DNA from: Amphibalanus amphitrite
Taxonomy: Eukaryota; Arthropoda; Thecostraca; Balanomorpha; Balanidae
DNA: 64,000 nt
Assembly: GCF_019059575.1 (NCBI RefSeq)
Contig: NW_024881531.1
Span: forward strand, 868,001-932,000
Direction of reading: 5' to 3'
Shown here: positions 18,345-61,365 of the stretch, piece after piece
Numbering within the stretch: position 1 is the stretch's first letter
How the letters are laid out: every line of letters begins with the position of its first letter
Notes under the pieces: generated by a model
What the model was told of the DNA's origin: nothing
What the model saw: only the letters and a program-made list of their open reading frames with translations
Database searches by the model: none
Program-made: the position numbers and the translations under genes

Positions 18345-21300
18345 TCACTGCTGCTTGCTATAGTCCACATACACCCTGACCACCTCCCCGGAATACTTTC
18401 GCTGGCTGGGCATAAAGTAGAAGTCGGGCGCCGCCTCTGGGCCGCCGGCGCCGCGCTGCAGCGTGGCCGAGCGCCGCTCGCCCGACGGGTGGTAGGTGGC
18501 CGCCGAGAACTGGCTGCCTGGCCGCGGCAGGCTGTAGGTGGACCGGTCGCCGCCCGGCGGCGGCCCAGAGCGCGGCCGCTGCAGCGAGCGCGTCTCCACC
18601 ATCTGGGGCGGCGAGGGCGCGTGGGCGGTCGCCGGCGCGCCGCGGCCCCCCTTGGACGGCCGCCCGTTGGTGGCCGCGTCCGCCTCGTAACTCTCGTAAC
18701 CGTAGTTGCTGTGAGCCGCCATGTCACGCCAGGCCGAGTTGGTGATGAGCTTGTCCTGCGGTGGCAGCGGTGGAGGGTTAGCAGGGGAGCGAGGGACCAG
18801 TGGGAGGGTCGGAAGGGGACGGAAGGTAAATAGGAGGGCTAGAAGGGGATGGGAGGTCAGTGGGAAAGCAGAGAAGGGACGGGGGGCAGGGGATCGCAGG
18901 GTCGGTGGCGCGGGGAGGAAAGAGGTGGCAGAGGTAGGATGGGATGAATCGGTAGGCTGGGGCGGGGCCGAGTGAGAGGGTATTGATAGAATTGAACTGA
19001 ATTTTAGAGGAAATAACAGCGGACAACGGACAGCGACAGTCAATGATAAGGACGTTACGATAACTTCGTAAGAACATTCCTCTAGCTAAACGGTAGGAAA
19101 TGCATTTTATAGACGTGCGTTGATGCATTTAAAAGACAAATCACGAGGGCAATCATTATCAAATGATTCAGATAAATGGATTCTATTAAATCGAACTTTT
19201 CACTGCTGACCACACACGTACACAAGTCCCTGGAAACAGTTGCACACCTCAACCTGACTCACTAACAAAAATAATGACGACACACTACCAAGCCATGTGA
19301 CGGTGATGTGCGAGCCGCCTGCCGAGTGCTCTGAGCCCGCGCCTGCCTGTGGTCTAGCCACGCTCGCCACAACCAGGGTTCTCATGCGCCCGTCCGTCCC
19401 TACCATCCAGTGATATTTCTAACCCTAACAGCAGCTGGTGCGCGATCTGCATGCTACGAAGCGGTGCAAAAATGTGACGATGAAACAACGTACTCACAGC
19501 GCGAGAGAGCCTAGAAAAACATGTAGGACTGACCGGAAACCTAAGAAAGAGAGCGAGACAAGATGCGCTGATGTGACTGGAAGGCAGGGGAGCTGCGTTT
19601 CTTGCAATGGTTTGAGATGTAAGCACGCAAGTTCGACACAGCTGGGCGTGTTTGATAAATGATGTAGCGAGAGAAGGCGAAATACGAAACAAGGCAAATG
19701 GCAAAAGTAGCCGATAAGCAGAATAGCTTGTGACAGACAGACAGATGAAGGAGACGCCCTTTTATCGCCTTTCCCATATTCCCCTCAACCCATGATGAGG
19801 GACGGGTACGTAAAGCCATTTCATCCAGGCCTTCCCTAATGATCATGACGCATCAATATCGGATCTAAGAAACCTCCATATATGTCACTCTCCTTCAAGA
19901 GGCGATGCCTGGCCACCTCAGATCTCATTCCCACCTCGCCACCTACCAGTTACCACCCCGGTCAACCCACATCATCTCCCCTTTCCCCCATCCTCCCTAT
20001 TCCTCTCACCTTGGCCGTGGGTTTGGGCTGGCGGGCGGCCGGCGCGGCGCGGCGGTTCCTGGCCAGGGTGCAGGCCGCCTGGATAATGGCCAGGAGGATC
20101 AGCGCCGCCACCGCCGCCAGAATGATGTACAGCTTGACGGCCTCGGCATCCCACTGCTCCTGGGTGATCGGGCCGCTCGCCTCCAGACTGCGGGCTGTGA
20201 GTGAGAGAAGGGAAACGAAGAGTTAGAGATGTGATCCATGGTGGCTACTGATAAGTTGTGCAGAAATAAGCTTTCAACGAAACAGCTATGCTTGATTCTT
20301 GAAACTCGTAAGCAATTTTGGCGATCGGTATTGGTTCAGATCATGTACGAGATCATTGATCTGACCCTCCACAGGACACCGATCGACAGAGGGCAAGTAA
20401 GGAGTTGAGACCGGGATATACTGTGGAAAATAAAGGTTCATCTTACGTTATCTTACAACTTCGGACACTTAGGTCAGATACCCACTGCGAAAAGTAGGGG
20501 CAGTTAAAACGGAAACCTCAAACAAAATCCTTTGATACCTCGATCAACCGCAGCCACTACTCGACCTCACCTTTCCTTGGCTGGACGACCAGGTACTGCG
20601 GGTTGACCTGCAGGTTGCCCACCATACCGGTGGCCACCGACTCGCTGAGCACACGCTCTAGCGTCACCGCCTGCTCCTCGGTCTCCTCGACCCGCTTCAG
20701 CTCGCGGTCCATCCGCTTACGGTCGACTTGGAGGCTCATCTTGGCCACCACGTCGCCGCCGTCACTGCGGGAGGGGGGGGGGGGGGTATGTCAGGTCAGG
20801 TGGGGTCAGTGAGTTGCTACGGGGTTAGAAGAGGTCAGGACAGGTCGAGTGACCGAAGAATAGCTGTGTTTTATATAGCGGGTGCGGAATCAAAGGCCCC
20901 TTTGATTATCAATTGGTAAAAGTTCCAGCATTTACATGTAGTGTAGATAAGTAAATTTAATAGTGCAAACATCATTTAAAAACCGACAGTAGCTGAGTCA
21001 GTCAGCAATCGTTCTACACATCTACTCCCTCTTCCACCCACCCGCCCACCCACCACAAACCACAAACCCAACCCCTTCCAGCCCACCACCGCGGCACTCA
21101 CTCCTTGAACTCCGTGACCTTGACGGAGCTGGTCTTCAGCCCGGGCACCGTCTTCAGCACCGACATGACGTCGTTCCTGATGCGCTCACTGAGGATGTTG
21201 AACTCCTCCGAGCCCTGCTGGGGCACGGCGGCCGGTTCGACCAGACCTCGCAGCTTCAGTTCGACGTCATAGTCGACATTGGGCGGCGGCGGCGGCGGCA

Positions 21301-24300: not shown

Positions 24301-27300
24301 TCCGTCTCCAGGCATGTACTTACCACAGGACTTGATGCAGATCTTCTCAGCAGACACGATCGGGGTCTGGACGTGCTTCGAGAAGCGCTTCGACCTCTTC
24401 AGGTAGGCGCCGCCCTTGATCGGGAACAGCATGTACAGGCACTCGTCCTCGGTGAAGGAGAGATCCTGCGGAAAGAGAAGCGATTCAAGGTCAGCATGAG
24501 ATATCGGTCGAAACCTTGGTCATGCCGCGGTGAGAGACGCAATAATCAAGAGAGCAAGAAGGGCGTGTCTGGAGCGACTTTGCTCAATTACGACGAATAG
24601 GTCGTGAAAGGAAAGTGGCCGAGCATTATTGGACTTTTAGAAGGAATGTTACACGATAGACGGTCGTGACGTGTGGTAACAGGCTGCAAGAATCGAATTA
24701 ACAGTTCATTGGGGCCACATCTGCTTCATCCTGACTCGCCTTTTCATTCATACTCGACCATAAGATCCTACTGACAGTAATGTTTATTCCGTTTTGCGTT
24801 TACCCCGACTTCCGAGCGTCTCGTTCTTACCTTGCTGTCTTTAGACTGGCGCGGCCGGACGAACGAGATCTCCTGCCGTCCGTCACGCACCGATCCAGTG
24901 ATGTTCTTCAGGTTCTGCTGCGAGTCCTTGACGGGTGGGAGATGGCCGGCCATCCATCCATCGACCACGACGGGCCGGCCGGAGCCCACCACATACCCCA
25001 GCACCACGTCACTGGCCGGCATACTGGGCGTCTGCGAGAACGCCACGCCCGTCCAGACGTCATCGGAGGCGCTCTGCACGGTGAAGCGGATCTCGTCGCT
25101 CGGCTCCAGCAGCTCCCAGCGGACGGCGTACTCGCAGTCGGCGGCGTCCATGGCGCAGGTGGGCGGCCAGCGCCACTCGGCGCCGCAGAAATCGTACGCC
25201 TGCGGGTTGAACTCCTGGCCGGACTCGTCGCCCTCCAGGAATGAGATACTGGAGACGCCGCGCTGGCCGCCGTGGCCGTGGTACTTGAGCTCGTCGGGAC
25301 GGTAGAAGTTGGGCACCGAGGCGCTACCGGCCTCCAGGCCAGACTTGGGTCGGTGCATGTAGTCGCCAGACTGCTGGCCGCGCGCCCAGATCACGTGCAT
25401 CAGCTCGTCGGCGATCGTGTGGTCAGTCGGCTCCGAGGCTATGGGGGAGACACCGTGTCAGTTGTCGGAAAAAAGTGGAGAATGAAGAAAGAAATAACAA
25501 TATTATATCGATAAACGTAAGCAGCAGGTAGACCAGTGATGAGTAATATCCAGTGGACAGGCACTTAGAGCATGACCTAAGATTCAGCAGAAGAAAGCAG
25601 ATAGCCTAGCAAACATCCTACACTAACCAAAGCCTACCAATTCTCCGATACTTCCTACCGGCGATCTCCCTCTCCGCCAGTCCCCACCCTCTCCCTCCCT
25701 TCTCCCTCTCCCGTCCTCTCACCATCAATCTTCCTTCTGAACGCCACGGTGGTGACACCATCCTGCTCGTAGGCCAGCGCGGCCGTCAGGCTGCCGCTGC
25801 CGCCCCAGAACTCATCCTCGCGCGGGGTGGACCGGTCGCGCGTGTAGAAGTCGCCCACGCGGCCGAACTCGCCGCGCGCAGCACCGATCACGATGTCCGT
25901 GCAGTCCATGGCGTGGAAGTCGCCGCCGGGGTAGTAGCCCACGCGGGCCGTGCTCGCCGGCTTCTTCTTCTTGGCGGCTGGAGATGGGATGGGAGGAGTG
26001 TGAACGTGTGTTGATTTAAGGCAAAATCTGGCTAAACTAATGGCGACTTAATTTCACATCACGAAATACCACACACAGAGGCGTGAAGCAGACTCCTGCA
26101 CAGTTGTACAGAATAGATGACAAAAAAATGCGTGTTTAGACTATTCGACTTTCACATGATCATACGACTCGTATGAACATATGGAAAAACAAACGACACA
26201 TGTATCACGGACCCCTGTATGCTTATCGTACCTCACGGCCTCAGACTGTCAGATAACTTACGCTTGGCCGATGGCTCCGGCTCCGGCTCCGATTTAGGCT
26301 CCGGCTCCGGCTCGTGTTCTGGCTCCGGCTCCGCGGACGGCTCATGTTCAGGCTCTGGCTCCGAGTTTGGCTCGTGTTCGGGCTCTGGCTCCGAGCTTGG
26401 CTCGTGTTCAGGCTCCGGCTCGCTGGTCGGCTCTGGCTCGGAGCTGGGCTCCGGCTCAGAGTTTGGCTCGTGCTCCGGCTCCGGCTCCGGCTCGCTGTGG
26501 GTGTCCGACTCCGCCTGCCTCTTCTGACGAGTGATGACGTCAACACCGCCTGCGGGCATCACAGCCAAAGATCAGCCTCCATGGTCGAAGAAAGATAACG
26601 ATGTAACAGCTGTGAAGTGTGAACATCTACGATCAAGAAAGGATAGAACTAAAACAAGAATGCGGAAGAAGAAGGCAGTGGAAGAAAGGAACACCAACGC
26701 TGATAAAATCAAAAGACAGCGACGGAAGATCGGTAACAGAGTATTTGAAGAACGAAATACCTTGACGAACTTAAAAAATTTATATTTGTCTTGCTGACAT
26801 TCCAAATAAAAATTGGTGTTTAAAAATAAAAGTAAGTAAATGATATAACGTAAGTGTATGTTACAGCAAGTGTTTTTTATGAGCAAGACAACATGCAGCT
26901 GGATGATGCAGCGTGCACGTGCATTTAAAGCCATTTTAGTAGAACATGCTGAGTCAAAGTCAGCAAGATTGTCTTTAGTCAGAAAAGAAATTGATAAAGC
27001 ACAAGTTTTTAGTCAGACTTGTAAGACAATGTCACAAGATCGTGTTTTGGTCATTGATGGTTATTTCGAAATACGAGGAGCGACAACAGGATAGGGAGTC
27101 AAAGTTGCGTCAGGGAACACAGTCGATTCAGCGTAGTTCTTTGGTGACAGTCAACACTCTCATGCGTTTGGTCAGTCAGCTGTGAACGTGAAATAAACAG
27201 TTTCACCACCAAGGGCAGTGAAACGTCTAACCAAGTCGTCGCAAAGAAAAGAAATTTGCATACGCAGACTGCAAGTCATCTTATCGACGGATAGGGCATT

Positions 27301-30300
27301 TTCCGGTCAAAATGGCCACGGTGCATTTGTTTATACAGTGCTAGGTTTCGACAAAACTAACGATTAGCATGCACAAGTATTTGCCACGGCCATACAGCTT
27401 CTAGTATCGCGTTGGTGAGCGACTCTACTGACGCTGTACAATATACATACTAGGTAGCAGGTTTGTCAACTTCATAACATAGACTCTGAAACCCATACTT
27501 CGTGTGAGGCCCGATCAGGCGTCCGATCTATGTCGTTAGCACCGTATATACAGTTCGTTCCACCTCATACCTGTTTCCGATAGGGCCGGGGTCGACCGGA
27601 CGGCGCAGACGGCTGCTTTCCTTTATAAAACAACACCCCTCCCGATTTCACCCCGAGCCGTGAGCGCCGCCCGGCCTGATCCGCCGGCCGTCCCGGTGCC
27701 ACCGCAGGCCCGCAGCAGGTGAGTCGTCCGACCTCCGCCTCCGGTCAGCCGTCAGCCGTGCCGCATGCGCCGGCCGCGCGCCGTCTCACTTACCGATAGA
27801 GCGCACACGCTGCGGCCGATCGTCGTCGCGCACAGTGACACCGCCGGACAGCAGAGCGGCGGGCACGGCGACACGAGTGCGCGACCCCTTCGCCTGACGA
27901 CGGAACCCGCCGGAACGGAACTTATCCATCCGCGAATTACCTGACGCCTGCTTCTCGCCTTCGTCCGCCGGCTCCGGCTGGCTGCTCGGCTCCGGCTCCG
28001 GCTCGCTGGTTGGCTCCGGCTCGCTCGATGGCTCCGGCTCACTGCTTGGCTCCGGTTCTGGCTCACTAGTTGGCTCCGGTTCGCTGCTCGGCTCCGGTTC
28101 TGGCTCACTGCTTGGCTCTGGCTCGGCATGAGGCTCCGGCTCCGGCTCCGCCTCGGCCTCAGGCTCCGGCTCCGACTCTGGCTCCGGCTCCGGCTCCGGG
28201 TGGGCTCCCTCTCCTCCGGTGGAGGTGTGGGTGACCTCGATGGCCGGGAAGTGTTTGCACGTGCCGTCCAGGCCGTTGGGCCGCCAGCCGACGGCGGCGT
28301 AGCTCTGACCGCGGACCTGCATCACCATCTCGATCTCGCCAATGTCGCGCAGCTGGCGCCAGTAGAGGGTGAACTCGGGCGAGAGCTCCTTCTTCTGGTA
28401 CAGGCCCAGGTTCGTGATGGGCTTGCGCATACCGGCAGCTGAAAACGAGGCGGACGTTAACAATATGGAGGATAAGCAGCATGTGAAGCATATTGCTTAT
28501 TTCAACCCGGGATATATGCACATATTCGGTTGTAGAGCTGAAGCTAAAAATTCACGAGCTCATTAGAGTGGCAAATGTTCTTCATTATCACATTTCAGGA
28601 AAATGCAGTAGCATATGATAACCAACGAACTAAAGCACTGCAAAAAACTGCCACATCTTCCCTTTATTGTGTAACTTACGATTTCTCTGCTCGCAGTTTT
28701 TGCCAAAGTAGCCGACGCGACAGAAGCACTGTTTCTTCGGGTACGAGGTGGCAGCCAGGTCGACACACTTGCCGTACCTTCCACAGTGCTTGTCTTCCTC
28801 GCACTCGTTCTGGAAAGATTAGAGGTGATTACAAGATAGCTATATGATTTTTTTCTTTCCTCGCTAATTACCACAATGTCTCGTGTAAATCGTCGTCTAG
28901 TTTTGTAACACCCGTAGCTGGTGCGCCTGACATCAAAAACCCACCACAAACGTCACTATAAACACGCCACTTACACAACCCGCATTCTTCCACGGTTTAC
29001 GCGAATCAACTCGCACAACACGCGATGGGCAGCATGGCGCAACGCCGGCCACGATTCTGGTCCACTTCCCAGCTTATCGTTACATCTGCGAGTGCTCCCT
29101 CCCGCACTCCGGCCGCGTGCGCCCCTGAACGTCACCCTATGGGAGTTGAGTTGACCCGGGCCGGTGGTAGTTACACCATATCACCCTCATCCTCCCACAT
29201 TCATCACAGGAGGGTAAGAAGCGGAGGATGTTGGCCCGTGCGGTCTGGGGTGAGACTGAGGGAGCATCTCCTCCCACCGATCCCCTCTCTTCCCCACAGA
29301 CAGGATCCGTTCCCCCAGATGTAAAAATGTCCTCTATTTTCTTCATCAGGCTGTAATGGGTTGGACTTCTGACATTGTTAAACGACCCCACAGCAGAAGC
29401 TGGTTGCTGGCGATGGCAGGATTGCCAGATAGGCTGAAAACTCACCGAGAACTGGCATCGCTCTCCGTACCAGCGCTTCTCACAGCGGCACTTTCCGAAC
29501 GAGGCACGTCCGTGACCGTTACAGTCCTCCCTGTAGTCGTTACCTGTGGGCGAGACAGGTCAGGTCAGGTCAGGTCAGGTCAGAACGGTGACGAAATATG
29601 AAGGGCAGAGTCGATAAAGGTATCTCAGGTCACAGCAAGGCGGGATATAATATAGAGCCAGATTCTTAGGATTAACAACAAATCATGGGTTTGCCCTTGG
29701 TTGTTACTGAACTCAATTAGAACGGCTTGCATTGGGCCGTCATTCGACTACTATGCCGTTTTCTGCTCAGCCTAATTGCTGTTCGTCATTTCTCTGTCCA
29801 CAGGACGGCCGGCATCCAAGGCGGACCCTCCAAGGTGATCCACCGAGTCACTCGGTCGATCAGTCAGACATAACGAGCGCTACCAACAAAAACGACCGAT
29901 ACCCGACCATTGCAGCGCACAGCGCCAACAGACTACTCGCCGAGCCACACATACCGGCAGGTGGCCTTCACAGGCAGGCACCGCCGGCTGGAGAGGGTTC
30001 AGACGGCCGCAAACCAGGTGCCAAATCCGCTCAGCCGGGCAGCGAGAGGCCGGTCTAAGTCGGATGCCGGCCATTCACAGACGTGATCTGATCACAGCTA
30101 CCCCACGTTTCGCTTAATTTAGACTCAAATTAACATTGGCATTCCCTAAAATAAAACAAACTGTTTCTGGATTCATTGTCGGGGAACAATACAAGACATG
30201 GTGTGAATTGGAAGAAGAGCCGGAAGCCAGAATGCGTTTCAGCGACATCCCAGCGAAAGCTACTGAAATAATTTGCATCAATTTCCATACTGCTCCACCC

Positions 30301-33300
30301 GATGTTGGCTCGCCAGCCTCTCGATTTCACCAGCAAACCGTCCTGGCGCCTGGTACCGTCAATCTGTCTCGACAGGAGGCCGGCGCCTTCCTACACTTTC
30401 ACCCCGTCCTTCGGCGCAGTCCTCCGCACCAGACACGTGCCGGGTGCAGTTCGGGGTGCACCGGCGGGGGCCCGCGGGGCGCCCCTCTGCTGCCAATCCC
30501 TGTGGTGCTGCAGAGGACAGGAGCGGCAGGAGAGGGTGCAGGGCGGGGAAGGAATATCGGAAGGACGCTCCATATTCGGAGCAAGGCGGCGTCCTTGGCT
30601 GGAGCTCAGCTCGGCGGTTTAGCGCTCATGCAGCCGTCCGTGAGATTGTCACGGTTCTAGCTCGTGTGACCTCTTCACGAGCGCACATAAATGACATTCG
30701 AGCAATATATGATGAAATTAGACTTCCCAACGAAAACTCTGAAGAATAAGCCTCAAGTCATCCACGACTGAACATCTGTTAACACGAAAAACGACGAAGA
30801 CGATCAATGAACGCTTTTGAGACAAGGGACGACACACACGCGAAAGACACGCGAGGCGGCGTCCGAAAATTCCCCGACATTTCGCCGTCTCGGAGCGTGT
30901 AGCGCCACCGTTTGACAATCTTCAGCCTATTGACATGGCGTTAGGAACGCTCATAATTCACCTCAGCTGACGGGAAAGGCCCGTGTGAGTCCATTTAGAG
31001 GTCATCCATCGTCTTCGCCATTGAGTTTCGGACGCAGACGATGGACAGGGCTGACAATGGATTCAGACCCATTGTTACGGGTAAGGCAAGGGGCGGTAGG
31101 TCTGAGTGAAGGTCGCCTTTATATCAAGTGGCCATGGCAATCTGGATTCAAGCATGATGCATGCAAATATAATTTCATCACTCTGCACTCCGCTTGTTTC
31201 AAAATACCTACCAACCGACAAGGTTCTACATGTCTGCAAGTATGCCAGTAAAAAAGAACTGTCAAGGACTTGAGAACAGGCATATGGTGATTCAGCACTG
31301 ATGCATGAATTAGGAGACATGGTTCGTGATTCAAAATCTCCATCGTCTATATGACGTCACACCCTCCACCGCGCGTCCCGATGACGTCACGTACCGACGA
31401 TGTCGACGTCAGCGCAGCTCCAGAAGTTGTAGCGCGGGCTCCACTCGTTGGCCTGGCGCACCAGACGAATCGAGCAGTCCAGGCACTCGTAGCCCTCCGG
31501 TAGGGTCACCGTCTGCTCCTGGGCACTGCCGGAGGTCGCCAGAGGTCACACGGGTCACCAGAGGTCAGTGTTAGGGACAGGGTCACCGTCTGCTCCTGGG
31601 CACTGCCGGAGGTAAAAAAGGTCAGAAGGGTCACCAGAGGTCACCAGAGGTCAGACAGGTCACAAGAGGTCAGAGTCGGGGACAGTGTCACCGTCTGCTC
31701 CTGGGCACTGTCGGAGGTCACCGAAGGTCATACGGGTCACCAGACGTCAGACGGGTCATCGGAGTTCAGATGGGTTATCAGAGTCCAACTTAGTCACGAG
31801 AGGTTGATATAAGCTCTTTTGCATTGCGAAAAGCTGAAAGTGCCTGCTATATGTCAAAGTCTTGGCATACATACAATACAAACCATGCAGGAAATGAATG
31901 AACACGTAATTTTCTTCGCATTCGAAAGCCAGCTTTCCATGTTGCGTAACATATTACACAATCTATATGCGTTCGTTTCGTACCCAGATGAGACCCGTTA
32001 CAATTTACATAACGTGTAGATAATGGATTATCTATGACGCTACCGTTTAAGCACTGTCGACAACAATGAAAGTATATGCCTTCATTGTTGTCGCCGCCGT
32101 TACGAAAGGCGACAGCGATTGGAGCGCACGAGGAACGTTAATATTTTATTTATGATTTTACTGAACGTTCCGACGGGTTTCGACGAAAAATACAGTTTTT
32201 TGAGTGCATTACGACGATTCGTTTCCCTTCGCTTTTCGTATTCGTAATATGGGAATTTTTCGCATTTAACGTAATGTATTCATTAACTCAACATTCGTGA
32301 TTGTTGTAACGACAACAATTAATGGTCCTCCGGGCCGGATCGATAAGAATCGATCCTTTTATCGTGTGCTTTTGTCATCGATTGCCATTGACCCCGAGTT
32401 CATTGTAACTTAACGATGACCTACTTTACTCGCTAGCATCTATCTCGCACTTTTACAGTTAAAGTAAATTGTAGCCCTTATCATGGAGACGGCTGAGAAG
32501 AAGTTACGGGCCAGGAAGAAGGGAGCATTTACGAGACTCTGTAATACAGCCGAAACCATTATCGCATCAAACGGAAGCAGAACGCAACTGCAAGGTCTAC
32601 TCGAAAGGATCGGAGAGGCTTTAGACAACGTGGCTGAAGCAAACGATGCGTATATAAGAGGACTCGAAGATGACAATGAAGATATAAGAATATCAGAACG
32701 CTACATGGAAGAGGTGGAGGAGCGTTATAAATCAATTGGTGACAAAATCACGTCGTACTTAATGGCACGTAAGAGCGACGCACCCTCCGAAGCGAGCTCG
32801 CGAAGGGCGGGCTCAAGCATACGATCTCAAGCGTCAATTACGTCAAACCGCTCTACAGCATCTAAAGAAGCCCAAATTAATGCCCGTCTGAAACGGCTGC
32901 AGGCGCAGCAGCTAGAACGGCGCACACAAGAGGAGAGAGCTCTGGAAGAGGCAACGAGGAAAGTGCGTCTGGCTGAGGAAGAGGCGAGAAGAAAGATGCG
33001 TCTGGCTGAAGCGAGGGACGCTGCAGAATTGGCTGCAAAGGAGGCCGATTTACGCCAGGCAGCTGAGGACGAGCTGCAATGGGAAAGAATAAATGACTTC
33101 GACGGAGAAGCTGAAAACCAAAGACATCAGCAATCGAGTGTCATCGAGATGAACGACGAAGGTGCCGCAGCCCCAACAGACGGTCCAGTAACCGAATGTT
33201 TGACGGCGCAGAAACCGGACCAGCCGACGAGCACCATGGCTAACCAACAAGATCAAGCAGAAGAGCACGCACCGAAGGAACGGCAGGTTCAAAATTTAAA

Positions 33301-36300
33301 TCCAAGACGGACTGCTTCTGCAACATCCTGGATTTCCGAGGTGGCAAACAAACCGCAAGATATGACGTCAGCAGGGCAGTACCCACCGGGCGGTCATCAT
33401 CGAAGTGTTCCCCAGATCAAACTACCAATGTTTAGCGGGAAGGCAACTGAATGGCCACAATGGATCGGACTGTTTAAAACGCTCATACACGACCAGCAGT
33501 GTTTGTCCGACGCAGAAAAACTCGCCCATCTTCAGTCTTCTGTCACGGGGCTGGCCAAGCAGACAGTCGAAGGAATGCTGTATGATGGTGCGCTGTATCC
33601 TGTAGCCTTAGAAACGCTCATGGAGAGATTTGGAAAGGAACAGGACATCGTAAATGCCAATCTTTCTGCCGTCTTCTGCACACCACCCATGAAAGAGCTG
33701 GACCCGACGGCGCTGGAAAGATTCCATGCTGTCGTCCGCTGCGCGGTCAAAGTTCTTGAAAATATGGGATTCGAAGGTGACCTCAACAGCACCGAAAACC
33801 TTCGTCGGGTCGTGCTGAAACTACCGAACGAGCTGAAAAGAGAATGGGGGCGTCAAATCGTGGAAATGGAGCCAAAACGACCTGGTCTAAGGGACTTCGA
33901 CAGCTGGCTGAGCCAACAAGTTCGCATCGTCACGGCCCTCCCAGCCAAGCCCACGGACTACGACAGAACGACTCGCTACAAGAGTGACCGCTACAAGAGC
34001 CTCCTAAGAACACCTTCAGCTCCAGCAACCTTGACCACGGCACCGGAGGCCAGCATAAAGAGCGCCAGACCTCCGCACGAGCAGGACGCGCCACACTGTA
34101 GCTGCGGAGAGTCACACGAGCTGTCCGTGTGCCCTTCGTTTCTGCAGCTGTCAAAAGGAGAACGAGCAAAGTTTATCGGTGAAAGTGCTCGCTGCTTTCT
34201 GTGCCTGAAACTAGGACATCGGTCGCGACACTGTCCATCGGTAGAGACATGTGAAGAAGAAAACTGCCGGGGAAGACATCATCGCCTTCTTCACGGCAGC
34301 AGCAGAGTCTTCCCTTCTAAGACTGATGGTTCAACTCGTAGGACAGTCGCGGCTACAACTCCACGGAAGGATGAAATGACCCTGCTTCAGATAGTGCCGG
34401 TTAGGGTTCACGGAGACAATACTTACGTCGACACGTTCGCTATTCTCGATTCGGGGGCTCAGACCTCACTGTGTACCGACCGGCTGGCTGAGAAGCTGCA
34501 GCTGACTGGTGAAGTTCGGCCTCTATCGCTGAACAACGTGGAAGGCAGCGGACCGCAGCGGATGGCCATGAAGACATCGGTGAAGCTCACCGCACTGGCG
34601 GAGGATTCGGAGACACGCTCAGTGACTGTAAATGAAGTATGGACGGTGCCAAGACTGAACGTTCCGGTACCCCAGCTGAGCTCCTCCGCGCGCTCGAAGT
34701 GGCTTCATTTGAACGGGCTGGACATAGCCGATGTTGGCGCAGACCAAGTAGAAGTGCTTCTTGGAGCCAATGTTACCGAAGCGATTCTCCAGAAAGAAGT
34801 ACGTGTCGGGAAAGCAGGCCAGCCAGTCGCCATCAAAACGCATTTCGGTTGGGCTCTGACTGGCTCCATCGCCAGCTTGACTCCGACTGATCAGCACCAT
34901 GTGATGCACATCCACCGCAGCACCTCTCAGGAAGACGAGCTGAACGAGCTGCTGCAGAACTGGTGGAAAACGGACTCATTCGGTACCTCACACGACTTGA
35001 AGAAAGAGACTTCGCACGAAGACAGACGAGCCATTCGAATACTCGAAGACACGACCAGGCTTCAAGACGATGGTCACTTTGAATGTGGTCTCCTGTGGAA
35101 AAAGGACGAAGTGTCGCTGCCGGAGAATCGCATCGGCGCACTCCGTCGCCTGGAACGAACTGAAAAATCACTTCGAAGTAACCCTGACAAGGCGAAGGGA
35201 TACAAACAAGTCATCGACAGTTATGTCTCTCTCGGGCATGCTCGTAAGCTGGGACAAGACGAGGCAGCCAAAGCCAACCCTAAAAGGTGGTACCTTCCTC
35301 ATCATGCCGTCTTCAATCAGAACAAGCCCGGGAAGATAAGAGTTGTGTTCGACGCGTCCGCAGAGTTCCATGGAACTTCGCTGAATGAAGAGCTGCTAAC
35401 TGGCCCAGATCTTCTTCAAGAGCTTCCGGCTATTCTGATGCGTTTTCGCGAGAAGTCGGTGGCTATAGTCGGGGACATCGATCAAATGTTCCATCAAGTG
35501 CGCATCCAGCAGAGCGATCGACCAGCCCTCAGCTTTCTCTGGAGGGACTTGGAGTGTGGCCGACCTCCAGACACATACGAAATGAATGTCGCCATTTTTG
35601 GCGCAAAGTGCTCTCCTGCGATCGCCTCCTACGCGTTACGAAAGGTGATTGAAAGTCAAGTAGAAGTCGGACTCAACAAGCACTCGGCATCTGACATTGC
35701 AAAGCAGTTCTACATGGACGACTACGTGGCCTCAGCAGAAAGTCCTAAGAGTGCTGCCGACCTACTTCACACCGTCACCAAGCTCGTCTCCACAGGCGGG
35801 TTCACCCTGCGAAAATGGACAAGCAACTCAAGAGAGGTGATGGAATCTGTTCAGCCGACCGATAGGGCTCGTTCCGAATTGGACGCATTCACTCCGCTCT
35901 CTCCTGAGCGCGTGCTCGGCCTGATCTGGGACACGGAACAGGACACGATCGGTCTAAACGTTCCGAAGAAACGAAATCTCCCAACGACGAAACGGGGAAT
36001 TCTGAAGGCAATAGCAGCGGTATACGACCCGCTCGGTCTGGTGTCGCCGTTTATGCTGCAGGCAAAGCTGTTGATGCAGGGTCTATGGAGACAGCAGCTT
36101 ACATGGGACAGCCAGCTGGACGAACAGGACCTTCACAGGTGGCGATGCTGGCAAGAGGAAGCCAACATCCTCTCACAGCTACGGATCTCTCGCTGTTACA
36201 CCGCTCTGGATGGACCAGTGAAGAGGTCAGAGCTGCACGTGTTCAGCGATGCCTCGGAAGCAGCCTTCGGCGCAGCAGGCTACCTCCGGCAAATCGACGC

Positions 36301-44566: not shown

Positions 44567-44625
<59 letters not shown>

Positions 44626-47600
44626 GCAAGAGAGAGAGAGGAGAGAGAGAGGAGAGAAAGAGGAGAGAGAGGGAGAGAGAGAAAGAGAGAGGCAAGAGAG
44701 AGAGAGAGAGAGGGGGAGAGGGAGAGGGAGAGGGAGAGGGAGAGGGAGAGGGAGAGGGAGAGGGAGAGGGAGAGGGAGAGGGAGAGGGAGAGGGAGAGGG
44801 AGAGGGAGAGGGAGAGGGAGAGGGGGAGGGAGAGGGAGGGAGGGGAGGTGAGAGCTGAAGAGACGAGACGGACAACAGAACCGGAGACAATAGCGGAGAA
44901 TCCGCAGCATCCCCGCCCAGAAGCGCTGCGAATGGCCGAAACGGCTCGAGAGTGATCAGACAATACGAATAATGAGGTGAAGGGCGACGGCCCACATACC
45001 TCGCCGACAGGTCAAAGAAAGCGAAACAAATAGAGACACAGCCAGAGCGCATGTCCTTGGCAGATCGTGCATGCTGCATCGTCTCGTCAAACATGACCCT
45101 GAGATGGAGTGACGGGATAAGAGGTGCCCGAGCGGTCTCCCTCGCGACTCGCGATCTCACCTGGTGGGGGTATCCCAGATGCCATGACACGTTGAATGAA
45201 GAGCCGGCGCGGATGGACGTTTTTACCTCGCCTGAAACAACAAGAACGCCACGTCAGGGACCGTGTATTAGCATATACGTCGGACGGCGGCGGAGGAGGT
45301 GCGCCTGGCACCGGTCGGACCGGTGCGCAGATCCGCCCTGATCCGACCGCGGGCCTCTCGGAGCAGGCGGCCTTGCGGTCATCCGCTGGCGGCGGTGACA
45401 GTCACCGGATGAGCTCAGTTCCCCGAGCTGCAGCATCGCACAGCGTCACTGCAAAGGTATGATGAGCATCTGCGGCGGGCGCCACAGCCTCTCTGCACAC
45501 ACACAGTCAAAAATACCGTAAGACTGACGAAACAACACAACTCTAACGATGCAATACCACATCTCCCATCACGACCACAAACATCAACACTGGATGGGCG
45601 CTTCATGCTCGGCTCTCTGACAGGAAAATCCTTCAACCGCGGCTGACTGCAGCCTACACTCGGTTCCTCCCCCTCTTCTATCATAACACGGTGCGGCGGC
45701 TAACCACCGGGTGTCAGACAGGCACGCAGCCCTCCCTCTCTCCGGCTCGGTTCCCGTTTGGACCCACTCTACCCGTTCGACCCCTACCGCGCTCGAGTCG
45801 CTCCGACCCTCCGTTTGGTGCGCGGCGGCCCATAATCAGTACCTTACCGCCCGTGCGGCACGTCTGATTGGTCCCCAGGTAGGACAGAACACGCGGGGTA
45901 TGAGGAACGCCACTGCACCAGAACTAGGACAACTGAGTTTACGCAAAACTGAGCCAAAACAACTCTGATGTCATCTATATGGTGAACTTAAAAACTGCCG
46001 TGGGATTTGGGCAGCCAATGCAGTCCAAAAAGCATTAGGTCGCAAAATCTAGGGTAAAATAATCATCTACGTCACGTCTTCATCCAAGAACATTGTAATA
46101 AACCACTTCCTTTCGCCGCACCTTCACCAGAACTGGTGCGAATAAAGCGATCACGTGAGCTGTGACCGACAGCGGTGACATTTCGGCCGTTCCTCCTGAC
46201 ATCTTTACACGTCACCGCGTGACCGTAGATCCCGTGACCCCTCGTAGTGGCCCTGTTACAAGTCACGCGGAGGCGCCGGTTCAGTCGTCACCGCGCCGCG
46301 TCCACCACGGAGCAGGCCAGGTGATAGCGGCCAATCGCGCATTGTAGTCGCCGTGAGTCCAACGCTATCTTCAGGAACAAGACAATAACACCAATCGAGC
46401 CGGCGACTGAATGCTTTTCGGAGCGTAATAGCTTAATGGGGATTAATGACGCCTCACTAGACATTGAATTAGCCTTCGGAAAGAAATCAGCGACAAAAAA
46501 TGTCGGTGTTTTTTCAGGACCATATGGCTCTATTGCCGATTAATCCGAGGGTTTTACGTGCCTGAAGTCATGGTCACGCGGGGAGGGCGGCGGTTCCAGT
46601 GCTGACTCAGCATTATTTGCCGAGACTGGGCGGCGTGGCTGAAGCAGCAACTCCTGGCTGGACTGCGCTCGATACCTCCGGTCACTCTGCCGCCTCCCCC
46701 ACTCTCCACACCTCTTTCCCACCCCAACCCTCTCCCTTCCACTACCCTCCCTCCTGATACCTACAAAGCTAGACGAGGGCCACTCTATTTCTATGGACGT
46801 GACCTGCGCCACTGCAACACCACGTGCCAAAATAACCCAGACCCTCCCTGTTATCCCAGCACCCCGGCCGACTGTGTTATGAGCACGTGACCCAGGCCCC
46901 TGGCGCACGTGACCCAGGCGAGGGACATCTGTCGGCCGGCCGGCGCCTCGCCGCGGGGCGACGCTCGTAACCCGCCATCAGCGTGGGACAATGCAAAGAC
47001 GCCGCACCGTGTTCACGTTGCTCAATGAACGGCGCGGGGGCCGGAGGCGATTGGGCAATGCGTTTTGTGTATAGGAGCCCGGCGGCGGGCCCTGCGCCGA
47101 CCGCGACCCTCAGAGAAGTTCTCAGGACCGGAGCGTCGGGGCGCTGCGGCCGGGAGGAAAATAAACTTAAATGACGCTTATGGGTGATGCAGTTCATGCC
47201 GTTAATGCAAATGAAGAGCCACGCAAGTTAAAGGAGAAAAATAATTGCCAGACGACAAAAACTTTACTTATGACCTCCCAGAACATGGCAGAGTAACGGA
47301 CTTGCTGGGACCAGCGTTGAAGGTAATTGTGCAAAAAGCGCGGCACCAGTTTTTTTTTTTCTAATTGTAAACGTACTGTAATCGCAATCGTGACGGCTGC
47401 GATTCCCGTGCTTACAGTGGTGAAAAGCAAAGGACGACCGTTTTACACCTAACCTTCCATGCATCCCTCTAGTCATCAAATCCGTGCAGGGAATCCCTCA
47501 GCTCCGATTAAAACATCGGATCGTTAGGTCACGTACTCGACCCCGCTCATGAGAGCGTAAGACGGTGTCTTAATTGGCTGACCTCTCAAAGGTCCCGGTG

Positions 47601-59600: not shown

Positions 59601-61365
59601 GAACACTGAGGCTGGCTGATACCGGCAACGCATTTAACGCGCACAAGTGCCTTCTTCCGATAGACATTCCCCATGACCATGGTTTCGTCTTAAGGATGAT
59701 GAAGAGAGAAGTAATTTAAAACAAAACAATACATTGTTATTTGAAGCAGCAATGAATCATCGAAAACGAGCATCCGTTGTTGCAACTTGCAAGCTAGTTA
59801 CCTGCTGTAAACAGTCAATAAATAACTATCAAAGGCAATAGAGCTGCAAAATAGACAATGAACAAGCCATGGGAACAAATACGACAACGCAATAACCACG
59901 TGACTCGAGATCACCCGTCTTCCCGACTCGTTCATCTTCGATTTCCAAAGTTCCTTCATCTAATAAGCCATTAGTAAGCCATCCTGTCATTTAGGCAACA
60001 GCTTCTCGCAAAACGAGTTCCATCAATTTCCCAACCCATCACGCGGCTGGCTCTTAGCGCTCCTTCCCGGTGCCATTTTCACTTTTCCATCGCGTTCGCC
60101 CCCTACAGCGGGCTCGCGAGGAGTCTACCCGGTGACGTCATAAAGACGACCCAGTCACGTCATCGACTGGTGTCTGCTCGGGAGACGTTCCCCGGTCCTG
60201 TCCGGCCACTTTTCCTGCCCGTGTCGCAAGCGGAGGCCGCAGCCGGTGCCGGCGGCGGGTGCGATCGACGTGAGGAGGCCGCGAGGAACTAGCGATGAAT
60301 GGTCGCCGGCCTTGGCGGCACCAAACCGGGTCGGTACCAGCCGACGCCTTCCACCTTAGTGCAGTACAGCCGGTAGCGCTGCAACGCATCCATCTGTTCT
60401 TCCTGATCCTGTGCTCTTCTACGACAGAACTTTCTTATAAGCCAGTATCTTTCGTACCTGATGCCCCTCGTAAAACTTCTACGTTACCCTCGCTGTTCTT
60501 ATCCACAGTCCCCAACCGACCAGGAGACCTGAGTACTCGAGACTACCGAGGTCACGTAGGAGAGTGGCCACCGTAGGACTTAACACGGCACATCCTGTTG
60601 GTAGCACGGTGCGGGAATTTCCATAAGGCAGGTGTGGCCAGGTTAACCATATGCCAGTGAGTCAGAAACTCCACGGAATCGGGCCTCTCCCCACGCCTTC
60701 ACTTTATCACGTCATAACGGAAAAGCACCCCCTCGACACGTGACTGTCACAACCAGACCCTCACCAAGATTCCAGGTTTTTTATGCCTCTTGATGTGTGT
60801 TTTCCGATAGCGCAGTCACCACGTGCCCATAACCAGGGCGTCGATTGGATATTCATCGTTACACTTCACTGACGATAACAGCCATTTCCAATTACTCAAC
60901 TGTATCTACGGCAATTATCAAACGCCCGGATAGTTAACGTCTAATCCATGGTAATTAGGCGTCGTTCAAACACCAGCCGCAGCCCGCCTCATGGTACACC
61001 GATGACTAGCTAAACCCACAACTACGCAACGACGCATGCCGGTGACCCCCCCCCCCTCCCCTTCTCCCTGCGCCATGTCAATCGCCGCAGGCATTCTAAT
61101 AACACAGCACGCAACACATTGCGACATGGCACCCCAGTCACTGTGACTTGCATACCACACTCCCTACATGATCGATCCGATCCCAACCCCAAGAGAGGAA
61201 GCAGCGGCCGGACTCACCTTTGGGCATTCCACATGGCGGCTTGGTGCGGAACGAATCCAGAAAGTCCAGGTCAAACTTGCGCGCCGGTGGAAAGGTCAGC
61301 GCGACGTGGCCCCAGGCGATTGGGGTCAGCGCGAGTAGCGCCAGCGGGCACAGCCAGCGGGTCAT
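18345..61365 (-). CDS. Single-pass membrane protein: BIM1/X325-like copper domain, EGF-like, split DOMON, DOMON, SEA (15 coding exons, 1,213 aa)
   Basis: Coding exons in order: 61365-61218, 45231-45161, 43793-43696, 31525-31395, 29543-29446, 28809-28680, 28438-27794, 26549-26262, 25977-25723, 25438-24831, 24465-24324, 21339-21102, 20764-20571, 20194-20010, 18755-18345. All have GT-AG borders and matching phases and total 3,642 nt. Residues 1-19 are a signal peptide ending AWG, so the mature protein starts at His20 ([10 protein letters not shown]). The first domain (20-149) has Cys45, 120, 123 and 143, a WHLGYPH motif (His67, His72) and CADVD (Asp145, Asp147), as in BIM1/X325 copper proteins. 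Then: a four-Cys EGF-like module (150-182), a six-Cys EGF (183-225), DOMON 1 (about 245-295 and 540-621), DOMON 2 (about 720-870), SEA-like (about 890-1015), transmembrane helix (1037-1060) and a Tyr-containing tail (1078-1213). Domain names come from motif reading, and function is inferred: surface copper, redox or glycan binding. No gene symbol recognised. Confidence 0.88.
21340..24323 (-). other. Intron 11 of the BIM1-like/DOMON gene
   Basis: A 3-kb intron containing the candidate alternative last exon (23081-23196). Around it lies GC-rich sequence with CAGA repeats (23240-23275) and further GC-rich DNA at 24050-24180. The part 21440-22900 is AT-rich and shows no recognisable element. Confidence 0.55.
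23081..23196 (-). CDS. Alternative last exon of the BIM1-like/DOMON gene: short hydrophobic C-terminus
   Basis: Located between coding exons 11 (24465-24324) and 12 (21339-21102). It follows a good pyrimidine-rich acceptor (TTTGTCTCTATGTTACAG) and accepts exon 11 in the right phase. It then reads 37 residues to a TAG: a hydrophilic stretch [20 protein letters not shown], then the hydrophobic segment [15 protein letters not shown] and a final RR. The product (909 aa) would keep the copper-like, EGF and DOMON domains but lose SEA, the transmembrane helix and the tail. The C-terminus resembles a GPI-attachment signal or a minimal transmembrane anchor; the final RR is unusual for GPI. A candidate AATAAA lies at 21941-21936 on the minus strand. 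Confidence 0.55.
26274..26505. repeat. Coding minisatellite (GGCTCC/GGCTCG-type), exon 8
   Basis: On the + strand a degenerate hexanucleotide array of GGCTCC, GGCTCG and TCGTGT units. On the minus strand it encodes the EPEPEHEP repeats. The array in exon 7 at 27968-28200 has the same unit. Such arrays are expected to vary in length between individuals. Confidence 0.85.
26550..27793 (-). other. Intron 7 of the BIM1-like/DOMON gene
   Basis: A 1.24-kb intron, AT-rich through 26600-27400 with no recognisable gene. Near the exon 7 donor it becomes GC-rich (27580-27780) and contains CTTTATAAAA at 27621-27630 on the + strand, discussed as a weak promoter candidate. Confidence 0.5.
27968..28200. repeat. 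Coding minisatellite (GGCTCC-type), exon 7
   Basis: A second GGCTCC/GGCTCG array, encoding [16 protein letters not shown] repeats on the minus strand. The matching unit in two neighbouring exons suggests the exons or the array were duplicated. Confidence 0.85.
29544..31394 (-). other. Intron 4 of the BIM1-like/DOMON gene
   Basis: About 1.85 kb. It begins with five GTCAG units at 29559-29582, has a GC-rich segment at 30380-30620 whose overlapping ORFs resemble nothing I know, and is otherwise unremarkable. The neighbouring introns 28439-28679 and 28810-29445 also hold no recognisable feature. Confidence 0.5.
31500..31760. repeat. Tandem repeats copying the start of coding exon 4 with its acceptor
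   Basis: The segment GGTCACCGTCTGCTCCTGGG plus CACTGCCGGAGGT (start of exon 4 and its acceptor on the minus strand, about 31504-31536) recurs at about 31579-31612 and, with small changes, at about 31686-31718. The copies are separated by AGAGGTCA-type short repeats. Only the copy at 31504-31536 joins an open exon. Confidence 0.8.
32089..32344 (+). repeat. 5' LTR of the BEL/Pao element
   Basis: 256 bp beginning TGTCGCCGCCGTTACGAAAG and ending CCGGGCCGGATCGAT. It matches 38482-38737 base for base. The exact edges are uncertain by a few bases because the LTR does not end with the usual CA. If the LTR is trimmed by two bases at the left and one at the right, 5-bp flanks TGTTG appear on both sides as a possible target duplication. 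Confidence 0.92.
32483..38281 (+). CDS. Gag-Pol polyprotein of BEL/Pao retrotransposon (1,932 aa)
   Basis: One frame encodes the whole replication machinery. Approximate regions: N-terminal charged coiled coil (130-210), DUF1759-type gag (310-465), CX2CX4HX4C zinc knuckle (571-584), retroviral-type aspartic protease with DSG at 656-658, reverse transcriptase with YMDD at 1077-1080, the Pao-type (A17) and RNase H-like region (about 1140-1400), integrase zinc-binding HHCC (about 1570-1615), integrase core with Asp1642, Asp1704 and Glu1754, and a C-terminal DUF5641-like region. This order is characteristic of BEL/Pao elements. The start ATG lies 138 bp after the LTR. I see no stop, frameshift or lost catalytic residue. 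Confidence 0.95.
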   Translation: METAEKKLRARKKGAFTRLCNTAETIIASNGSRTQLQGLLERIGEALDNVAEANDAYIRGLEDDNEDIRISERYMEEVEERYKSIGDKITSYLMARKSDAPSEASSRRAGSSIRSQASITSNRSTASKEAQINARLKRLQAQQLERRTQEERALEEATRKVRLAEEEARRKMRLAEARDAAELAAKEADLRQAAEDELQWERINDFDGEAENQRHQQSSVIEMNDEGAAAPTDGPVTECLTAQKPDQPTSTMANQQDQAEEHAPKERQVQNLNPRRTASATSWISEVANKPQDMTSAGQYPPGGHHRSVPQIKLPMFSGKATEWPQWIGLFKTLIHDQQCLSDAEKLAHLQSSVTGLAKQTVEGMLYDGALYPVALETLMERFGKEQDIVNANLSAVFCTPPMKELDPTALERFHAVVRCAVKVLENMGFEGDLNSTENLRRVVLKLPNELKREWGRQIVEMEPKRPGLRDFDSWLSQQVRIVTALPAKPTDYDRTTRYKSDRYKSLLRTPSAPATLTTAPEASIKSARPPHEQDAPHCSCGESHELSVCPSFLQLSKGERAKFIGESARCFLCLKLGHRSRHCPSVETCEEENCRGRHHRLLHGSSRVFPSKTDGSTRRTVAATTPRKDEMTLLQIVPVRVHGDNTYVDTFAILDSGAQTSLCTDRLAEKLQLTGEVRPLSLNNVEGSGPQRMAMKTSVKLTALAEDSETRSVTVNEVWTVPRLNVPVPQLSSSARSKWLHLNGLDIADVGADQVEVLLGANVTEAILQKEVRVGKAGQPVAIKTHFGWALTGSIASLTPTDQHHVMHIHRSTSQEDELNELLQNWWKTDSFGTSHDLKKETSHEDRRAIRILEDTTRLQDDGHFECGLLWKKDEVSLPENRIGALRRLERTEKSLRSNPDKAKGYKQVIDSYVSLGHARKLGQDEAAKANPKRWYLPHHAVFNQNKPGKIRVVFDASAEFHGTSLNEELLTGPDLLQELPAILMRFREKSVAIVGDIDQMFHQVRIQQSDRPALSFLWRDLECGRPPDTYEMNVAIFGAKCSPAIASYALRKVIESQVEVGLNKHSASDIAKQFYMDDYVASAESPKSAADLLHTVTKLVSTGGFTLRKWTSNSREVMESVQPTDRARSELDAFTPLSPERVLGLIWDTEQDTIGLNVPKKRNLPTTKRGILKAIAAVYDPLGLVSPFMLQAKLLMQGLWRQQLTWDSQLDEQDLHRWRCWQEEANILSQLRISRCYTALDGPVKRSELHVFSDASEAAFGAAGYLRQIDATGAIQCALVMSRTRVAPLKQLTVVRLELQGAVLATRLAESITSALSMSIDSVYFWTDSQVVLGYIQNESRRFHTFVANRVAEIRDKSDPEQWRHVPGPLNPADDCSRGLEASALTPDSRWFRGPSFLYDDETEWPKYESHSHPTQETDPEVKVVASVSVRVKKVGLLVDPARFSSWTRYKRVVAWLFRFAYNYVAKRRPQYSHWSVTGRLSTEELCAAESHILKRSQQESFTEEMDDISQGRPVSTKSALAQLAPALDENGVLRVGGRLSKSDLPTSTKHPIILPRLHDVTRLIAISYHRKVIHAGVEHTMNELRQKFWLPKARSTLRSLIHSCSVCKRRRARPQAPLMAGLPSARFDCKHAFSSVGLDFCGPVYVRSRRSRQKRYILLVTCLASRAVHLEMTSSLDTDSFLLAFRRFIARRGRPTHVFSDNGKNLLRGEREIREALQKWNKAHIHDALAQQDITWHFNPPAAPHMGGSWESLISSVKRALKVVVGNSLVTEEVLHTVLTEVEHILNSRPITHVSSDAGDAEALTPNHILLGRNCPSLPPGVFSDKDLSMKRRWRHSQQIADHFWRRWTREYLPTLIGRQKWTKDTRNIQIGDVVLVAESNVPRGRWPLARVAKVFPGSDGRVRSVELNTPSGTYVRPVVRLCVLEESE
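38467..38479 (+). other. Polypurine tract of the BEL/Pao element
   Basis: Eleven G residues followed by AG, two bases before the 3' LTR. In LTR retrotransposons such a tract primes plus-strand DNA synthesis. Confidence 0.8.
38482..38737 (+). repeat. 3' LTR of the BEL/Pao element
   Basis: Base-for-base match to the 5' LTR. Its last 30 bases include ATTGTTGTAACGACAACAAT, and the same motif recurs in the flank at 38748-38767, outside the element. Confidence 0.92.
40472..40826 (-). mobile_element. tRNA-derived SINE
   Basis: Read on the minus strand it begins GGTCCCGTAGCTCAGTTGG, with an A box at 40819-40808. A B box (GGGTTCGAAGCGC) lies at 40753-40741. A tRNA-unrelated body follows, and the element ends in an A-rich tail at 40485-40473. 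The spacing and A/B boxes fit a tRNA-derived SINE. The 3' end cannot pair with the 5' GGTCCCG as a tRNA acceptor stem, so it is not a working tRNA gene. TAGAACC occurs in both flanks but not directly at the 5' edge. Confidence 0.75.
42358..43541. mobile_element. Non-autonomous DNA transposon, ~30-bp TIRs (family 1)
   Basis: The left end GTAGGGGAGAGTGGGGAAAG continues ATGCCCAGGG; the right end is its inverted copy with one mismatch. Inside, near both ends, the motif GGGCATCTTACCCC or its variants recurs in both orientations, for example near 42548-42605 and 43125-43175. No ORF encodes a transposase. I could not define a target-site duplication or a superfamily. Confidence 0.75.
43794..45160 (-). 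other. Intron 2 of the BIM1-like/DOMON gene with long purine repeat
   Basis: A 1.37-kb intron whose main feature is the GA/GGGAGA tract at 44562-44850. A run of G residues lies at 44453-44466. Long ORFs across the tract on both strands are repeats, not genes. Confidence 0.6.
44562..44850. repeat. (GA)n / (GGGAGA)n purine microsatellite
   Basis: About 290 bases of almost pure purine: GA dinucleotides, then AGAGG variants, then a regular GGGAGA hexamer array (44711-44830). On the transcribed strand of the minus gene it is a long pyrimidine tract. Confidence 0.95.
45161..45231 (-). other. Second coding exon of the BIM1-like/DOMON gene (71 nt), carrying the second His motif
   Basis: This exon is too short for ORF-based detection. 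It was found because the flanking exons (ending phase 1, starting phase 0) required a missing piece. Acceptor TTGTTTCAG and donor GTGAGA frame 23 codons reading [20 protein letters not shown] then PHQ. The phases fit on both sides exactly and the peptide continues naturally into [13 protein letters not shown]. Confidence 0.85.
50012..50076. repeat. Short minisatellite, unit about GTGGACGCTCGACG
   Basis: Four to five imperfect copies of a 13-15 bp unit (GTGGACGCTCGACG and variants). Confidence 0.8.
56283..56314. repeat. Perfect 32-bp palindrome
   Basis: The left arm ATCGACGCCCATCGAC is followed directly by its reverse complement, without a spacer. Neighbouring sequence contains further partial copies of CGCCCATCGACG. 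Confidence 0.9.
58190..59184. mobile_element. Non-autonomous DNA transposon, ~22-bp TIRs (family 2)
   Basis: The left end GGTAGGGTGGGGCAAAGCGC continues CC; the right end is its inverted copy with one mismatch (CACTCTACC). Internal motifs of the type GGGCGTTTTGCCCC and GGGCGTATTACCCC recur in both orientations (about 58377-58435 and 58763-58820). No transposase ORF. The layout is like that of 42358-43541 but the sequence differs. Confidence 0.75.

Follow-up and report, generated by a model that had tools for sequence, protein, structure and literature searches.

The window analysed here, the whole 64,000-nucleotide stretch of Amphibalanus amphitrite contig NW_024881531.1 (assembly GCF_019059575.1, positions 868,001 to 932,000, forward strand), carries on its minus strand a spliced gene that, according to its reading frames and splice sites, runs from an ATG at 61365 to a stop at 18345. 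Sequence comparison shows this gene to be the orthologue of arthropod Nahoda, a named family: a domain like those of lytic polysaccharide monooxygenases (LPMOs), EGF, DOMON, DOMON, a SEA-like region, a transmembrane segment and a tail follow one another in the same order and in alignable sequence. By analogy, our favoured reading, at a probability of about 0.45, is that the protein could be a tethered oxidoreductase in which DOMON haem would serve a brace copper in the activation of O2 or H2O2 and an extracellular oxidation.

The gene consists of 14 exons and encodes 1,117 amino acids when exon 7 ends at the donor 27794, or 1,068 when it ends at 27942. All 13 introns are GT-AG. Their phases match, as was claimed in an earlier note made from the DNA letters alone. 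The fifteen exons and exactly 1,214 codons of that note did not survive: the sole 15-exon model built, in which 30507-30403 is a further exon, comes to 1,103 or 1,152 codons, and this added exon, whose phases fit but which has no counterpart in the homologues, was dropped. At least nine of its residues (positions 152-160) face a gap in 98 of 98 homologues, and its removal restores a homologue-like join from exon 4 to exon 5. The domain Pfam scores, the homologue search and the 98-protein conservation counts given below were obtained with the 1,103-residue model that included this exon. Compared with six homologues, 10 of the 13 exon junctions fall in aligned sequence, and the junctions 7/8, 10/11 and 12/13 lie in or beside variable linkers; because of these aligned junctions and the near-invariant N-terminal residues in 98 proteins, the gene model is not a product of chance. 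We lean towards the 1,117-residue form because homologues such as P0003 and P0005 carry a similar basic stretch, which in them sits in a poorly aligned linker. The exons are as follows.

61218-61365, minus strand: exon 1, with the ATG, signal peptide (residues 1-19), predicted mature N-terminal His20 (61308-61306), start of the LPMO-fold domain and Cys45
45161-45231, minus strand: exon 2, with His67 (45181-45179) and the proposed second brace ligand His72 (45166-45164; from alignment to TdAA15 His91)
43696-43793, minus strand: exon 3, middle of the LPMO-fold domain
31395-31525, minus strand: exon 4, with Cys120-x-x-Cys123, the proposed axial position Phe140 (31425-31423), Cys143, CADVD with Asp145 (31410-31408), and the end of the LPMO-fold domain
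29446-29543, minus strand: exon 5, EGF-like domain 1 (Pfam)
28680-28809, minus strand: exon 6, EGF-like domain 2 (Cys pattern, within a weak EGF_TEN match)
27794-28438, minus strand: exon 7, first half of DOMON1, Glu-Pro repeat linker and basic stretch; the alternative donor 27942 gives the shorter form
25723-25977, minus strand: exon 8, DOMON1 core with the candidate haem ligand Met464 (25909-25907; Met in 53/53 of set A1)
24831-25438, minus strand: exon 9, DOMON1 end with His579 (25280-25278; 53/53 in A1) and DOMON2 with Met665 (25022-25020; 50/51 in A1)
24324-24465, minus strand: exon 10, DOMON2 end with His759 (24375-24373; His in 11/11 of A3 and 14/14 of A7)
21102-21339, minus strand: exon 11, Pro-rich linker and first half of the SEA-like region (SEA below cut-off)
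20571-20764, minus strand: exon 12, second half of the SEA-like region
20010-20194, minus strand: exon 13, transmembrane helix, residues 941-963 (20132-20064; hydrophobic stretch read by eye)
18345-18755, minus strand: exon 14, cytoplasmic tail with a conserved terminal motif (present in homologues) and the stop

The Glu-Pro repeat linker lies inside DOMON1 (28196-27794, minus strand) and is followed by the two in-phase donors, 27942 and 27794, which differ by a partly basic stretch of 49 residues; the transcript may be alternatively spliced here, and the basic site may be protease-like. Part of the acceptor region of exon 4 (about 31640-31490, minus strand) has a second copy upstream, since 34 bases spanning the acceptor are present twice.

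The homologue search retained 98 of 1,685 candidates at an E value of 0.001, isoforms of single genes and close relatives included. The closest comes from the copepod Tigriopus californicus (53% identity over residues 20-330), most arthropod homologues are 42-53% identical and that of Lepeophtheirus 34%, and several are labelled nahoda in their source records. Named proteins among the 98 are from arthropods and molluscs, and some are unnamed metagenome proteins; a search with a mollusc query, which 67 out of 1,434 candidates matched, brings in two annelids, Owenia and Capitella. With the N-terminal domain alone, 388 of 1,311 candidates match, and the best 120, those listed, add the nematodes Ostertagia, Strongylus and Plectus and the sponge Geodia barretti, whose sequences are all short or incomplete. 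Among the matches listed none bears the name of a chordate, which does not prove that chordates lack the protein. DOMON stretches were matched three times in P0093, five times in P0094 and four times each in P0096 and P0224 (three molluscs and one annelid). The family of Drosophila nahoda (CG12781) has the same whole architecture as the window protein; the differences, in the donor of exon 7 and in how long the linkers are, concern nothing essential. That no pathway could be named for the protein, as the earlier note put it, was fair as regards function, but the gene does belong to a named family.

The N-terminal domain spans about 130 residues, and its predicted start at His20 agrees well with the homologues: His is found in 94 of 94, and the -3 and -1 residues are legal for cleavage in the same 94 under a rule-based prediction. 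Its four cysteines (45, 120, 123 and 143) and the motifs WHLGYPH (66-72) and CADVD (143-147) are present as first described. A description as a BIM1/X325-like copper domain fused to EGF, DOMON and SEA domains holds in so far as a His-first domain of LPMO/BIM1 fold is joined to EGF and DOMON domains, a SEA-like region and a transmembrane segment, a combination conserved in orthologues; the BIM1-type assignment itself is not supported. In the family search that had been proposed, the domain scored 19.3 bits against the BIM1-like family PF20238 (cut-off 27) and 22.4 bits against LPMO_10, just under the cut-off of 23, and a Pfam rescan of the corrected 1,117-residue protein found the same families at 17.8 and 16.3 bits, the former again below 27; homologue P0118 passes PF20238. 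Two profiles of the domain, searched against solved structures, gave the AA15 LPMO of Thermobia domestica (5MSZ) as their only significant match (E 7.1e-6 and 5.5e-6), LaX325 not being recovered among solved structures by sequence profile. The LPMO beta-sandwich is seen in the predicted models of two homologues rather than of the window protein itself, and by VIA structure comparison these appear closer to AA15 than to X325, with a Z gap of only 1.1-1.9. A scan of the species' own genome (807.6 Mb, 2,644 contigs) for the BIM1 family, ignoring introns, gave no matches and detected none of 14 controls, and is uninformative.

The same comparison bears on the identity of the copper ligands. In TdAA15A, the copper is held by His1 and His91, with Tyr184 in the axial position; the passage describing the site also gives Ala89 and names neither His86 nor Asp189 as a ligand (PMC5823890). 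The HMMER alignment takes in the stretches LHIQAPH (up to His91) and EEYRNCADIAI (with Tyr184, Cys187 and Asp189) of this protein: in it, His72 falls on His91 and Phe140 on Tyr184, so both a second brace His and an axial Phe/Tyr are found, while Cys143 falls on Cys187, Asp145 on Asp189 and His67 on His86. From the sequences, the copper site would be a brace formed by His72 and by both the amino group and the side chain of His20, with Phe140 axial, and so probably not quite the site first proposed. The earlier note had instead proposed that His67 and Asp145 complete a BIM1-type site with His20. The check by conservation in orthologues that it suggested came out in favour of these residues (His20 94/94, His67 93/97, Asp145 96/98), with similar counts for His72 (94/97) and Asp34 (94/94). 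Among 12 diverse sequences, however, His72 is present in all and His67 in nine, the other three having Arg; P0014 and P0034 have Ser for His67 and keep His72. Asp145 maps to the core Asp189 of TdAA15, and in the model of the tick homologue this Asp lies five residues past the Phe in one predicted strand and should thus face the other way. A full BIM1-type site of His20, His67 and Asp145 therefore seems very improbable to us. X325/BIM1 sites consist of a brace plus an Asp (PMC7529816, PMC10952591), and an Asp elsewhere in the domain, Asp34 for example, may be a candidate for this role. The gene models of P0084 and P0098 look broken around His67/His72.

Pfam confirms the EGF and the two DOMON domains that had been called in the window. 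The DOMON fold appears to be matched in structural comparison, and the pairs Met464/His579 and Met665/His759 are conserved. These counts refer to partial sets: A1 holds 53 of the 98 homologues and A2 holds 26 plus the window; A3 unites the window with 10 DOMON2 rows out of 14 that were extracted, an empty one included, and A4 unites it with 8 DOMON1 rows out of 15; A7 consists of 11 of 24 DOMON pieces plus three DOMON2 rows, the 13 left out including P0097 608-775. The DOMON1 profile has no match among solved structures up to E 10. Membership in the dopamine beta-hydroxylase (DBH)/MOXD group was rejected, no Cu type II monooxygenase domain being among the nine Pfam families found at E 1. The SEA call falls short in the window protein, with 15.5 bits against a cut-off of 26.4, but passes in three of seven homologues scanned (P0094, P0096 and P0224), two of the four failing being short domain-only proteins. 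The transmembrane segment reported earlier corresponds to the hydrophobic stretch 941-963, after which a tail of some 150 residues remains; BIM1 has a GPI (glycosylphosphatidylinositol) anchor. The terminal motif of the tail (18425-18348, minus strand) is found with at most four substitutions in 42 of 98 homologues, and several of the rest end differently or are partial; of the six homologues aligned, P0002, P0003 and P0004 have it; the conserved end suggests a conserved intracellular partner.

From the gene, its architecture and orthology, the conserved residues and the predicted folds of homologues, we infer copper, haem, electron transfer and a substrate in the following way. Nahoda would be a type I membrane protein with the compact LPMO-fold domain at its outer tip; signal cleavage would free His20, which with His72 would hold a single copper, Phe140 being axial. 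The Met/His pairs of the two DOMON domains could serve as in b-type cytochrome domains, their haem would pass electrons to the brace copper, and the copper would activate O2 or H2O2 and oxidise an extracellular glycan or other matrix target. With its brace beside cytochrome-like DOMONs, the proposal resembles the partnership of fungal cellobiose dehydrogenase (CDH) and LPMO, except that here both parts would sit in one polypeptide at an animal cell surface, with no flavin domain among the Pfam matches. We regard as rather doubtful the wider idea that a copper-brace domain of LPMO type is present in animals from sponges to insects and that, in arthropods, molluscs and annelids at least, its fusion with haem donors of its own in one membrane-tethered chain makes a self-sufficient enzyme whose target is the extracellular matrix of the animal itself.

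Several results weigh against the oxidoreductase proposal. Neither 5MSZ nor LaX325 is in the Foldseek top 50 for either model, the rows being mostly antibody and receptor chains. The segment after His1 does not reach the AA15-like length that we had set as a marker: profile position 26 aligns with chain position 63, leaving the domain about 37 residues shorter than 5MSZ before the first aligned motif. In LPMOs, this region forms much of the substrate face. Tyr stands in the place of Ala89. The window domain differs from TdAA15 also in having Phe for Tyr184 and in belonging to a multidomain protein of the membrane. With chains of 150-155 residues, X325 is likewise small, and polysaccharide cleavage by X325 was not detected in the account given in PMC7924993. 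On the haem side, P0097 (608-775) has Val instead of the DOMON2 Met, the sequence alignment of that Met to the cytochrome Met is weak (E 0.2-1), the strongest DOMON sequence match is DBH, which has Leu at the aligned Met and from which the window protein also differs in having no Cu type II monooxygenase domain among its Pfam matches, and the CDH-cyt family, unreported for the window protein, does not reach its cut-off in any of the three molluscs scanned. Lastly, P0082 (Halyomorpha) has Gln for His72 and keeps His67. This true-bug homologue has also lost Glu133/Trp134, and one lineage may thus have lost its copper site.

The weak point of the oxidoreductase proposal, a missing loop region together with a small size as in X325, keeps copper handling in serious contention: the domain would take up extracellular copper as fungal BIM1/X325 proteins do and hand it to a transporter or another protein without catalysis, the DOMONs reducing or holding ligands. 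We still consider this unlikely, given the sub-cut-off PF20238 score, the closeness to AA15 by both profile and, by that small Z margin, VIA, and the mapping of the proposed BIM1-type Asp to a core Asp. Against LaX325 (6IBI), the Nahoda domain shows only 11-12% identity; it is fused to DOMON and EGF domains, the fourth-ligand Asp appears unmatched, and a predicted transmembrane helix stands where BIM1 has its GPI anchor (PMC10952591). The EGF and SEA-like domains, the long Glu-Pro linkers and the conserved cytoplasmic tail would fit a surface receptor or adhesion protein, in which the LPMO fold and the DOMONs do no more than bind glycans or ligands and the tail signals or anchors, and DOMON may bind sugar (PMC6950343); but there is little reason why an N-terminal His should be near-invariant, or Met/His pairs conserved in the DOMONs, in a protein that merely binds, and we hold this quite unlikely.

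Functional or structural studies of nahoda were not found in the open-licence literature. In gene-related papers (PMC4321029, PMC3704779, PMC10627254, PMC2099499, PMC4316639), the gene appears in lists, tables and brief mentions: within a deletion interval, in an early-response list of S2 cells, in an overlap with accessory-gland markers, as an abundant earthworm expressed sequence tag and in a positive-selection list tied to "heterocyclic catabolic processes". An early branch of an LPMO tree holds sequences with DOMON/EGF and LPMO_10, the relation of the domains being queried there (PMC6950343), and most likely represents the same kind of protein. The fusion had thus been noticed before; the ligand reassignment, the conservation counts, the structural placement and the proposal of a cytochrome in cis are new here. 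Proteins of the Nahoda type are spread over arthropods, molluscs and annelids, with the N-terminal domain found in nematodes and a sponge as well, yet in the papers cited above the name receives no more than such mentions. An LPMO-type brace beside cytochrome-like DOMONs makes for testable chemistry, the residues being His20, His72, Phe140 and the DOMON Met/His; if the proposal is true, histidine-brace biology would extend to a broadly conserved animal surface protein, testable in Drosophila.

Elsewhere in the window, four further open reading frames have no Pfam match at E 0.01. Intron 3 (43695-31526) contains a BEL/Pao-type retrotransposon open reading frame of 1,932 amino acids (32483-38281, plus strand) with matches to Pao peptidase, reverse transcriptase and integrase, flanked by a repeated stretch near 32103-32287 and 38496-38680.
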